Shown here: positions 50,576-60,087 of the stretch, piece after piece | Layout: every line of letters begins with the position of its first letter | How positions within the stretch are numbered: position 1 is the stretch's first letter | From: Sphingobacteriales bacterium | GTDB lineage: Bacteria > Bacteroidota > Bacteroidia > Chitinophagales > Chitinophagaceae | DNA: 64,000 nucleotides | Reading direction: 5' to 3' | Assembly (NCBI GenBank): GCA_016200915.1 | Contig: JACQDV010000025.1 | Span: 1-64,000, forward strand | The notes under the pieces: model-generated | The model's input: only the letters and a program-made list of their open reading frames with translations | What the model was told of the DNA's origin: nothing | The model's database searches: none | Translations under genes and position numbers: made by a program

Positions 50576-50663
50576 AAGCCTTTAGTTTTATAGGTTGACA
50601 GTGGGTTTATAACTACCGTTGCACCGGTTGGCAATTATTTTTCACCGGCATTGATGAAGCTGC

Positions 50664-50684
50664 AACTACAAACCACAAACCAAT
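50664..50684. repeat. Heptamer word repeat, AACCACA type
   Basis: Three words: AACTACA, AACCACA, AACCAAT, in the gap upstream of the small secreted protein gene. Confidence 0.65.
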
Positions 50685-50751
50685 TCTTTCTGCGGCTTTT
50701 TTGCACACCGGTGATTTTAGCAAGGAATTTGATATAGTTAAGGAAAAACCC

Positions 50752-51243
50752 ATGAAAAAATCCATCCTGCTTTCATTACTGGTAATGTCAACAGTAACAG
50801 GTTTTGCCCAGTTAAAAACTACTCCTGTATGCGGGGTATTTGAAGTAAATGTGTTAAAAGGATCGGTGAATGATGTGATGCCTAATTTTACTGCTGCAGA
50901 AATTAAAAAGAAACTTCCCTGCTTTACCAGTGAAGAACCGGAAGGTAAAGACAGTAAGTGTAATGGCGCCGTATTTTATAAAGACAGGGATGTAAGCTTC
51001 TATACTTTTAGAGATTATATTGTAATTGGTCCTGCCTTTAAAGGAAGAACCAATATGCCGGTGATTGGCACTAAACGCAACAGTCTTTTTAATAAGTTGG
51101 GGAATCCACAGTTAAAAGACCCTAAATGGGATGCTTATCAAACTCAATATGGCTGTTTGATATTGTATTATGATGCACAGAACAAAGTGAACCGGATCAT
51201 CATGTCAACCAAAGGAACAGATGAAATTGATTTGTGTCAATGA
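50752..51243 (+). CDS. Hypothetical small secreted protein
   Basis: About 163 residues from MKKSILLSLLVMSTVTGFAQ, whose signal peptide ends at FAQ. A further start at 50701 would add 17 residues before the signal peptide and is rejected. The mature protein has four cysteines and a C-terminal region (YQTQYGCLILYYDAQNKVNR) like proteins that read as a short repeat of beta strands. No family was recognised. Confidence 0.72.
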   Translation: MKKSILLSLLVMSTVTGFAQLKTTPVCGVFEVNVLKGSVNDVMPNFTAAEIKKKLPCFTSEEPEGKDSKCNGAVFYKDRDVSFYTFRDYIVIGPAFKGRTNMPVIGTKRNSLFNKLGNPQLKDPKWDAYQTQYGCLILYYDAQNKVNRIIMSTKGTDEIDLCQ

Positions 51244-51251
51244 TATGAGTG

Positions 51252-51272
51252 GTTTGTGGTTTATGGTTTGTA
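51252..51272. repeat. Heptamer word repeat, GTTTGTG type (inverse orientation)
   Basis: Words GTTTGTG, GTTTATG, GTTTGTA just after the small secreted protein gene, the reverse complement of the AACCACA type. With the tract at 50664 the gene is bracketed by the repeats in inverted orientation. Confidence 0.65.
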
Positions 51273-51412
51273 GTTGAAGAAAGTTCTAAATAATTTGATA
51301 TTAAAATGAAAACTTATTTTAAATGGTTATCATTTTTAAATTCACCTTCCACATAATTATAAAATTGAGTTATTGCGCAATTGTCACATTTTCACATTTG
51401 CTAATTGTCAAA

Positions 51413-57199: not shown

Positions 57200-57886
57200 G
57201 TGCGGAACTATTTATTAATAGCTATCATACTACTTACGGCCACCAGTTGCGCTACATTAAAACCTGCTGATAAAGCGGCAGCAAAACCGGCGTCTTCCTC
57301 CCGTAAAATATCTTCTAATTCAGCTGCTTCTGTTAATCTTCAATTCATTAATGGAATAGAAATGAACCAGGAGAAGAAAACAACCGTTCACAATAAATCA
57401 GCGAATAATATTGTTCCGGCAGAATATAAAACGGTTTCTGCAAATGCTGCATTTGATATAGAAAGAGCATTGCCTATTCATTTTATATATGCTGCTAAAC
57501 TTGGCGTTGATGTGGAATCAATCACCAATTTTAAATTGTTTCAAACAATTGATGACTGGTGGGGTACTCCTTATCGCATGGGTGGCAGCACTAAAAACGG
57601 AATTGATTGCTCGGCATTTGTAAATACGCTGATGCTGGCAGTTTATGCAGTTAATCTTCCCCGTACATCAAGAGAGCAATATGAAACAGTTGCAAAGATT
57701 GATGATGCTGATTTAAGTGAAGGAGATTTGGTATTCTTTAATACAAGAGGAGGAATCTCACACGTAGGTGTTTATCTCGCCAATAATAAATTTGTTCATG
57801 CCTCCACCTCCGGAGGTGTTATGATCAGTGATTTGAATGAAGCTTACTGGAAAGCACGTTACAAGGGAGCGGGGAGGGTGAAGTAG
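57200..57886 (+). CDS. NlpC/P60 family cell-wall hydrolase lipoprotein (C40)
   Basis: 228 residues starting at GTG 57200; the nearby ATG at 57190 is in another frame. Lipobox TATSC near residue 18. After a linker of about 90 residues the NlpC/P60 domain has its catalytic cysteine in GIDCSAFVNTLML (about 136), the histidine in SHVGVYLANN (about 187) and the third polar residue in FVHASTSGG. It should cleave stem peptides of peptidoglycan. Confidence 0.9.
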   Translation: MRNYLLIAIILLTATSCATLKPADKAAAKPASSSRKISSNSAASVNLQFINGIEMNQEKKTTVHNKSANNIVPAEYKTVSANAAFDIERALPIHFIYAAKLGVDVESITNFKLFQTIDDWWGTPYRMGGSTKNGIDCSAFVNTLMLAVYAVNLPRTSREQYETVAKIDDADLSEGDLVFFNTRGGISHVGVYLANNKFVHASTSGGVMISDLNEAYWKARYKGAGRVK

Positions 57887-57918
57887 AGGTTAGGATTATT
57901 GATTACGGAGAAATTTTT

Positions 57919-58398
57919 GCCGCAGATTCGCAGATTGAAGGACGGATAAGAAGATTATTTAAACTTCAGATCATATGACCACATTTAATGAAAAAGATTT
58001 CCCATTACAAGATGAAACAGGAATGCTGATTGGTGTTGGAATGGAGATTCACCGGTTGTTGGGTAAAGGATTCCTTGAAATAGTTTATAAAGATGCTTTT
58101 TAATACGAAATGAAGCAACGACAGGTTACCTATGAAAGAGAGAAAGAATACACTGTCCAATACAAAGAAATTATACTGCCTCATAAATTTTATGCAGACT
58201 TCGTAGTTTTTGATCAGATAATATTAGAACTAAAAGCAAAAGAAGGAATCGCCAATGAAGATATGGCCCAGGCAATGAACTATCTGGCTGTATCTAAATG
58301 TAAAGTTGCTTTAATTCTAAACTTTGGAACTGGATCATTACAAATAAAACGGGTTGTTCTTTCCAAATAATCTGCGTCACAATCTGCGAATCTGCGGC
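57919..58398. mobile_element. Candidate cassette: GxxExxY gene between 18-bp inverted repeats
   Basis: GCCGCAGATTCGCAGATT at 57919-57936 and its exact reverse complement at 58381-58398 bracket the broken GxxExxY gene. The right arm is preceded by a further partial copy (AATCTGCGTCAC at 58369). No target-site duplication was recognised. Treating this as a mobile unit is inference. Confidence 0.55.
57975..58370 (+). pseudogene. GxxExxY protein (PDDEXK_3), interrupted by a nonsense codon
   Basis: The frame opens at ATG 57975 and reads MTTFNEKDFPLQDETG ... LLGKGFLEIVYKDAF, then meets TAA at 58101-58103 and continues YEMKQRQVTYEREKEY in the same frame. The family motif GFLEIVY is before the stop, and the PD-(D/E)XK-type residues (YADFVVFDQIILELKAKEG) are after it. 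Family members have a residue such as Gln at the stop position, so CAA to TAA is the likely change. Total 131 codons, the usual family length. An ATG at 58110 could still give an 86-residue fragment that lacks the name-giving motif. Confidence 0.88.
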
Positions 58399-58404
58399 TA
58401 ATTG

Positions 58405-60087
58405 CTACTTCACCTTTTTATACTCTACATAAAAATTCTTATCAAACAAATCTGTCGTTAATTCTTCGGCTGATTTAAAGTTTGTTCTGAATTTTTGCCA
58501 GTTCTCTGTGGCAATAAAATAACCTTTCTTTCCATCTTTATCAGCAGGAAGTTTGATAGGCATATTAAATCCTTTTATACAATTTGTCCAGCGGTAGTTG
58601 AGCAGAATGCTGCCTTTTTCAACAGTAGTATAGTATTCCAGTACAGGAATTCTTATGTCTCTTAAATACTGATCAAACACTTTGGATAAACCGGTACCAC
58701 TTCTCACCGCAATGTATTCTTCAATTTCTTTGGAGGTAACTGTTTTGTGATAATACTTTTCATTCAGTCCGTGCAGGATATTCCTGAACAATGTATCGTT
58801 ATCAATTATTTGCCTGACCGTATGCATCAGGTTAGCTCCTTTGGGATACATATCTCCGCTACCTTGTTTATTGACACCATATTCTCCGATAATGGTTTTA
58901 ATATTTCTTATTCCATTTCGTTGTCCCTGTACATAAGCATCACCGGCAGCTTTACCAAAATAATATTCTGTGTACAAAGTTTCACTATAATCAGTAATAC
59001 CTTCATGCACCCACATATCAGCAATGTCTTTAGTAGTGATATTATTAGCAAACCATTCATGTCCGCTTTCATGCACAATAATATAATCCCATTTTAATCC
59101 CCATCCGGTATTGGAAAGATCACGACCCAAATAGCCATACATAAATTTATTACCATAAGCAATGGCACTTTGGTGCTCCATTCCCAAATGAGGACTCTCC
59201 ACCAGTTTATAACCATCTTCATAAAAAGGGTAGGGGCCAAACCAATATTCAAGTGCCTTCATCATACTATCTGTTCCACCGGGAATATGCGCTTTTGCTT
59301 TTGCTTCATCACATTTTAAAAACCAATAGTTAATATTTAGTTTACCTTTTAATCCATTATACTCTTCGCTCCAGTTAACATATTTACCAATGTATGGAAT
59401 GATATTATAATTATTGATGGGCTGAGATACATTCCACATATAAGTTGCAGTGCCATCATTATTATCAAGCCTGGTGGAAAGTGTACCATTGCCAACAGCA
59501 TTCAATGAATCAGGAACAGTAATGTTGAGTACCGCACCAAAATCAGGTTTATCACTCTGGTGATCTTTGCAGGGATACCAAACACTGGCGCCTAATCCCT
59601 GGCAGGCAACAGAAACCCACGGACTACCCGTACAATCAGTCTTCCAAATCCATCCGCCATCCCATGGTGGATTCACTGCTTCTCTTGGCTTGCCACTGAA
59701 ATAAATAACAACAGACTGGTTCGTGTTTATTTTTAACCTGGTTGGAAAATCAATCCAATACACATTTCCTTCTCTTGTAAAATTTAATTGCTGGTCTTTG
59801 TATTCAACTTTATCAATCTGCATTGGTTCCTGCAGATCAATCTGCATTTTTTTCCCGGGTTGCAGCACTTTAAAATCAATTCCATTTTTGCCGCTGATAG
59901 TTTTATTAGCAATATCAGGTTTTACATCAATAGTGTAATGGGTAACATCCCACCATGTTCTTTCAGGGCCAAGACTTCCACGTAAACTATCCTGCCGGGT
60001 AAATGCCTGTTTTTTATTGAATGACTGTGCAAATGAGAAATAAGAAATCAGAAATAATAAATTAGAAAGGAGGAGGTATCTTTTCAT
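58405..60087 (-). CDS. Secreted M1 family metallopeptidase
   Basis: 560 residues with a signal peptide ending YFSFAQ. The zinc site HESGHEW (about residues 341-347) is followed by the glutamate in DMWVHEGITDY about 18 residues later, giving HExxH-x18-E. The substrate-binding exopeptidase motif of aminopeptidase N is represented by GMEHQSAIAYG (HMEN-like). Shorter than full APN (no C-terminal ARM domain). Diverges from the peptide-binding protein gene by only 28 bp, suggesting joint peptide use. Confidence 0.92.
   Translation of the reverse strand: MKRYLLLSNLLFLISYFSFAQSFNKKQAFTRQDSLRGSLGPERTWWDVTHYTIDVKPDIANKTISGKNGIDFKVLQPGKKMQIDLQEPMQIDKVEYKDQQLNFTREGNVYWIDFPTRLKINTNQSVVIYFSGKPREAVNPPWDGGWIWKTDCTGSPWVSVACQGLGASVWYPCKDHQSDKPDFGAVLNITVPDSLNAVGNGTLSTRLDNNDGTATYMWNVSQPINNYNIIPYIGKYVNWSEEYNGLKGKLNINYWFLKCDEAKAKAHIPGGTDSMMKALEYWFGPYPFYEDGYKLVESPHLGMEHQSAIAYGNKFMYGYLGRDLSNTGWGLKWDYIIVHESGHEWFANNITTKDIADMWVHEGITDYSETLYTEYYFGKAAGDAYVQGQRNGIRNIKTIIGEYGVNKQGSGDMYPKGANLMHTVRQIIDNDTLFRNILHGLNEKYYHKTVTSKEIEEYIAVRSGTGLSKVFDQYLRDIRIPVLEYYTTVEKGSILLNYRWTNCIKGFNMPIKLPADKDGKKGYFIATENWQKFRTNFKSAEELTTDLFDKNFYVEYKKVK

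Follow-up and report, generated by a model that had tools for sequence, protein, structure and literature searches.

The window, by which we mean the whole 64,000-nucleotide stretch of Sphingobacteriales DNA that was analyzed, probably contains a decayed or dead copy of a widespread and apparently selfish family of hairpin-armed cassettes. With more confidence than doubt, we explain these cassettes as selfish elements resembling the intervening sequences (IVSs) of 23S rRNA, in which a putative nuclease gene of ~350 bp lies between complementary arms made up of short quasi-repeats that are specific to each locus.

The GxxExxY proteins encoded by these genes form a very common, multi-copy family that has long gone unexplained; their name and Pfam accession turn up in just three of 5.39 million open-access papers, whose accessible passages assign them no role. 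The cassette model would give the family a testable role and thereby link it to the rRNA IVSs and heptamer repeats of many bacteria. Travel within covarying hairpin arms, targeting of operon junctions and target-site duplications (TSDs) would make this dark family a candidate for a mobile element whose enzyme and substrate are both defined. The model would also account for many spurious repeat-derived ORFs and offer a clean test of nuclease-only element movement.

The window locus and its protein

As the first-pass annotation had reported, a GxxExxY gene in the window is enclosed by an exact 18-bp inverted repeat, GCCGCAGATTCGCAGATT, whose two copies (57919-57936 on the + strand and 58381-58398 on the - strand) show no mismatch. 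The repeat extends beyond this to 19 bp exact and 22 nt at 95%. When the window was shuffled 40 times under a second-order Markov model, no inverted pair of exact 18-mers arose at a distance of up to 600 bp. The further partial copies that had been placed beside the right arm came down to a single partial unit. The features of the locus are as follows:

57200..57886, + strand: left neighbor, an NlpC/P60 lipoprotein gene
57919..57937, + strand: left arm GCCGCAGATTCGCAGATTG, consisting of two CGCAGATT octamers and extending at 95% over 57916-57937 (22 nt)
57975..58370, + strand: GxxExxY (PF13366/TIGR04256) pseudogene of the GKGFLE type with one internal stop, from a profile match
58101..58103, + strand: in-frame TAA disrupting the GxxExxY gene
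58369..58376, - strand: additional single CGCAGATT unit on the inner side of the right-arm region, overlapping the GxxExxY stop codon
58380..58398, - strand: right arm, the left arm inverted
58405..60087, - strand: right neighbor, an M1-family peptidase gene

The reading frame opens with the ATG at 57975 and has its original stop at 58368-58370; owing to the TAA at 58101-58103, the listed 86-aa ORF (58110-58370) is only the C-terminal portion of the gene. Membership in TIGR04256/PF13366 is evident both when the gene is read through (110 bits) and for the C-terminal ORF by itself (84.4 against a cut-off of 35), and the GxGxxExxY, D, ExK and QxxxY motifs remain legible on either side of the stop. 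The arms pair as a 19-bp stem enclosing the ORF in both the MFE and the centroid RNA folds (z -3.4). This copy is atypical in sitting between convergent genes, a minority arrangement, and a search for direct repeats abutting its arms revealed no TSD. In the congener G002, the junction between the NlpC/P60 and M1 peptidase genes is without a GxxExxY gene; the G002 intergene is not alignable with that of the window, which limits this comparison to the presence or absence of the gene.

Elsewhere in the window (50659-51279), inverted heptamer arrays, AACTACAAACCACAAACCA / TGGTTTGTGGTTTATGGTTTGTAGTT, enclose an unrelated secreted-protein-like ORF (50701-51243), and a similar pair encloses a fabI-like gene at another locus (L230:12510-13393).

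The AlphaFold2 model of the GxxExxY protein displays a PD-(D/E)XK fold with high confidence (pLDDT 96). Its best structural match is Cas4 SSO0001 (E 6e-4, with Z 9.8 across 96 residues), followed at lower scores by restriction enzymes and by Hjc, a Holliday junction resolvase (Z 7.2); a sequence search of the PDB returned no relative. Four residues, D63, K75, Q87 and Y91, are invariant in the family, and E73 and H14 are conserved in at least 90%. The D...ExK and QxxxY residues thus occur within the predicted fold, as in the Cas4/RecB-like members of the PD-(D/E)XK superfamily. At 117 aa, GxxExxY is a minimal domain, and it differs from Cas4 proper, with its four conserved cysteines and Fe-S cluster, in that the family alignment has no conserved cysteine column, which implies that there is no Cas4-type iron-sulphur cluster. 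From the modeled fold and these motifs, we infer that GxxExxY is a minimal Cas4/RecB-like nuclease, presumably catalytically active. A previous survey remarked upon a cas4 gene labelled 'GxxExxY' (PMC8934634).

Arm words, insertion sites and target duplications

The expectation that GxxExxY genes are present in multiple copies was borne out by eight loci in the window's genome, each of which has a short word of its own repeated in opposite orientations on its two sides (CACAGAGTAACACGGAGG, CGCAAAG, GGCGCTACGG, CCGCAGAG, CGCAAAGGCGCTAAGG, CGCAGATT, CACGGATT and TCTGAACC-GATT). We scored arms by aligning each upstream flank to the reverse-complemented downstream flank, and counted a best score of at least 30 as positive. 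By this measure, 74% of 82 loci from the same bacterial family possess arms, as opposed to 3.4% for mispaired flanks, and about a quarter of GxxExxY loci are without clear arms. Among ordinary ORFs from 344 kb of the window's genome, 5 of 255 (2%) have arms; a GxxExxY gene and a RAYT-like gene with palindromes are among these five. In other groups (79 loci from several phyla, among them Cyanobacteria, Planctomycetota, Acidobacteriota, Spirochaetota and Gammaproteobacteria) the figure is 58%, against 10% for mispaired flanks. The flanks of GxxExxY genes show periodicity peaks at 8-9 nt. The distribution of the genes is multi-copy and patchy, several copies per genome are broken, and complete hairpins without a gene are present in several flanks (L154, L175).

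The class of arm word is strongly associated with the protein clade (P=3e-15; P=1.6e-9 when restricted to one bacterial family): GATT words dominate 28:0 in GxGFQE/GxGFLE loci and CRCARAG words 86:24 in GPGL-type loci. This comparison of word classes was used in place of a global k-mer Mantel test, which gave a weak correlation (r 0.11, P<0.01). The association can be explained by joint descent of gene and arms, and would also fit the earlier suggestion that the protein recognizes its repeat. Within one clade the two arms covary, with shared departures from the consensus at 53.8% versus 40.5% +/- 1.4% in permutations; covariation can also be seen by eye at trpG|trpD, where one genome has the arm pair TCTGAACTGGGAT/ATCCCAGTTCAGA and another has TCTAAACTGAGAT/ATCTCAGTTTAGA. 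Such covariation would fit selection for complementarity or arm-to-arm conversion as well as recognition.

The 18-mer of the window is a different matter. Its 4.5-Mb genome contains 12 exact copies, and 17 at no more than one mismatch (0 for the reversed-pattern control), of which two flank the window GxxExxY gene and one other lies ~1.1 kb from another GxxExxY gene. The 18-mer is thus dispersed genome-wide and its association with the window gene is not exclusive. The proposed tie between this word and GxxExxY was not borne out in its detail: other GxxExxY genes have arm words of their own and most 18-mers lie away from such genes, which, taken literally, are the very observations that the first-pass annotation had named as contradicting it. 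The dispersed copies likewise led us to reject the 18-mer as a transposon end private to the window gene. All copies other than the window pair are solo. The intergenic ones form part of longer mosaics in which other short words also occur, and two of them (L097, L109) have no counterpart in the congener intergenes aligned with theirs. A dispersed quasi-repeat, CAATTAGCCAATTTGCCAATGTGCAAATGGCTCAATAACGCAAT, often precedes the intergenic solo copies (L097, L108, L109, L110, L113) and is itself missing from some congener intergenes. Coding copies are found in mutS, an SGNH hydrolase, an FAD oxidoreductase and an MBL-fold gene (exact in L091, L094, L106 and L111), all with their length unchanged relative to orthologues, on which ground an origin as 18-bp insertions was rejected. 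In the MBL-fold gene the 18-mer apparently overwrote sequence in place, and in mutS of G001 (L124) it is interrupted by a 30-bp in-frame insert, CCTGCCTGCCGTAAGTTCAGCAAAGGCAGG, that is itself a hairpin.

The cassettes are predominantly co-directional with both neighbors (77:5 for GxGFQE and 79:6 for GPGL; P about 1e-17 each), an orientation that could be attributable to survival instead of mechanism. Certain junctions recur, namely nuoF|nuoG (11 loci), trpG|trpD (9) and metH|metH (5). The metH|metH cassettes are independent in 5/5 cases on the protein tree, such trees being built from ~117 aa and poorly resolved; the proteins at this junction are only 64% identical between G000 and G002, as against 95% between L003 and L055, which are true orthologues. 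The junction upstream of a preA-like gene is occupied in G000 by a GxxExxY gene with CGCAAAGG arms and in G002 by an S23-type gene whose arms are TTGAATG heptamers; this sole mixed GxxExxY/S23 junction came from direct comparison, and the automated test across the survey set returned 0. At another junction, G002 has a GxxExxY gene and G000 a hairpin without a gene. No tRNA or rRNA neighbors were found as targets among the surveyed loci, and a motif search detected no rRNA signature in any of them. Several GxGFQE cassettes (L174, L181, L366, L380, L385, L356, L167) are concentrated in what appear to be operons for type I restriction-modification.

The GxGFQE clade has recognizable outer ends, TGTCTGAA...TTCAGACA, at 88/106 loci on each side and at 77 on both sides; the reversed-motif control for TGTCTGAA was found in 16/106 upstream flanks as opposed to 88/106. 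Direct repeats abut these ends at 7/77 testable loci versus 1/1521 mispaired controls, after exclusion of direct repeats within arm arrays (L154, L175, L247 and others). The TSDs are rare, were detected in this clade only, and are long and variable, at about 30-87 bp. Their contexts are given below, with gene names taken from translations and profile tests covering part of them:

L008, at the 3' end of a histidine kinase gene in the window's own genome: 87 bp, with an internal deletion in the right copy
L167, at an hsdS end: 39 bp, exact
L356, at an hsdS end
L366, at an hsdM end
L181 and its orthologue L380, at hsdM ends
L385, at an hsdR-like end
L174, at the start of an hsdM gene, as an eighth case

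In the congener G002 the site corresponding to L008 (L416) is empty and the histidine kinase end is uninterrupted; this read-through identifies L008 as an insertion with target duplication. The search for empty sites in relatives, which the first-pass annotation had recommended, thus succeeded here, and G002 is also without a cassette at the window junction. As the TSDs lie outside the arms, gene and arms entered together. Their movement as a unit by repeated insertion is well supported by these sequence comparisons; no identical recent copies were seen among the loci compared. The proposal that gene and arms form a mobile unit hence holds with respect to the empty G002 junction and the TSDs outside related arms, but the 18-mer is not the shared end.

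Explanations for the association of gene and arms

In the mechanism that we envisage for the selfish cassette, the unit would insert in sense between co-transcribed genes and consequently be read with the host operon. By pairing, its arms would fold the transcript, or extruded DNA, into a stem that sets the insert apart in the manner of the 23S rRNA IVS. This pairing would act in RNA, and the hairpin arms may serve to mark the unit as well as to protect the host transcript. The insertion cut would be made by the GxxExxY nuclease; in the GxGFQE clade insertion can evidently duplicate about 30-87 bp of the target, and such long and variable duplications would be expected if the two strands were nicked at points far apart. 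The window copy presumably arrived in the same way as the TSD-bearing cassettes. More tentatively, we raise the possibility, which we hold to be real but short of probable, that these cassettes belong to a new minimal class of selfish elements. These would be sense-oriented operon-junction hairpins with either a Cas4-like nuclease (GxxExxY, with octamer-like arms) or an S23 four-helix-bundle protein (with heptamer arms) as cargo. They would compete for junctions, generate long variable target duplications by a nicking mechanism, and give rise to gene-less derivatives and solo arms that make up much of the short-repeat content of these genomes.

Alternatively, the cassette might be moved in trans by transposase or retroelement machinery, with GxxExxY being cargo or a host-benefit gene, for example one for defense. 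This would sit well with a unit that has no transposase, with a sense bias that agrees with RNA-mediated mobility, and with the frequency of type I restriction operons as hosts of GxGFQE cassettes. However, the cassettes also neighbor nuo, trp, met and moxR genes with no shared partner gene seen, and the sole recurring protein of the unit is a nuclease with intact motifs. Moreover, the TSDs vary in length, whereas most DDE transposases produce TSDs of fixed length. We consider mobilization in trans unlikely. It is rather improbable, too, that GxxExxY genes are simply passengers among independent dispersed intergenic repeats, comparable to terminators or REPs, that have gathered at operon junctions. 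Such an origin would accommodate the gene-less complete hairpins, including the one in G000 at a junction occupied by GxxExxY in G002, and the occurrence of the 18-mer and heptamer words away from GxxExxY and S23 genes, as around fabI and the secreted-protein-like gene of the window. Yet it fares poorly against the incidence of arm pairs (2% of ordinary ORFs as opposed to 74% of GxxExxY loci) and the variation of arm words by protein clade and family (period 8-9 for GxxExxY and 7 for S23), and is already disfavored by the joint entry of gene and arms that the TSDs record. Finally, arms that covary, are predicted to pair in RNA and lie in sense in operons might belong to a domesticated gene, immobile today, around which they form a stem of regulatory RNA. 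This reading is made highly improbable by the patchy multi-copy distribution, the empty congener junctions and the TSDs, which show past mobility, and by the several broken copies per genome.

Relationship to known repeat-bordered elements

The GxxExxY cassettes share with insertion sequences and MITEs their terminal inverted repeats, target duplications and forms with and without a gene, the combination of terminal inverted repeats and TSDs being found in the GxGFQE clade only. They differ in having no DDE/HUH transposase, in ends formed by degenerate word arrays, and in TSDs that vary from about 30 to 87 bp where the classical elements have fixed short ones. The REP/REPIN-RAYT systems (PMC3733652 for REPs) likewise combine a multi-copy gene with its own inverted short repeats that are also dispersed alone, a pattern that we recovered here. 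In contrast to these, the GxxExxY unit has no Y1/HUH transposase, its protein having a predicted PD-(D/E)XK fold; in place of a single fixed REP it has complementary arms that differ from locus to locus, and its TSDs are long. In the window's genome, a RAYT-like gene (named from sequence; L236:1544-2204) that is flanked on either side by the palindromic AAGGAAGTCAAGTTTT..AAAACTTGACTTCCTT provided a positive control. Degenerate short-unit repeats whose sides pair are also known from the P6b region of the Nostoc tRNA-Leu intron (PMC3488679) and from the GGGAATC repeats of Xanthomonas (PMC4692102); the accessible portions of these reports describe no protein gene linked to such heptamer hairpins.

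The 23S rRNA IVS of Coxiella burnetii is an insert of ~430 nt with an S23 ORF, whose terminal inverted repeats pair as a 28-bp stem; the ORF is preceded by tandem GACAGAT heptamers, and the authors call the IVS selfish (PMC4990558). The GxxExxY cassettes resemble it in that a small ORF is enclosed by terminal inverted repeats that can pair as a stem, in a position to be read with the host transcript. They differ in encoding a PD-(D/E)XK nuclease instead of an S23 four-helix bundle, in their octamer-like words, and in occupying junctions of protein genes instead of lying inside 23S rRNA. S23 genes outside rRNA were also observed with inverted heptamer arrays (TTAAGTA, TTGACAG, GGATGTT, ATGGACT; L189-L224). 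Across the same genomes, S23 (PF05635) genes have inverted arms in 67% of cases versus 3.6% in the control, with a strict 7-nt periodicity. Together with the Coxiella IVS, these S23 arms suggest that the GxxExxY cassettes are best seen as IVS-like elements with a different cargo and a different home.
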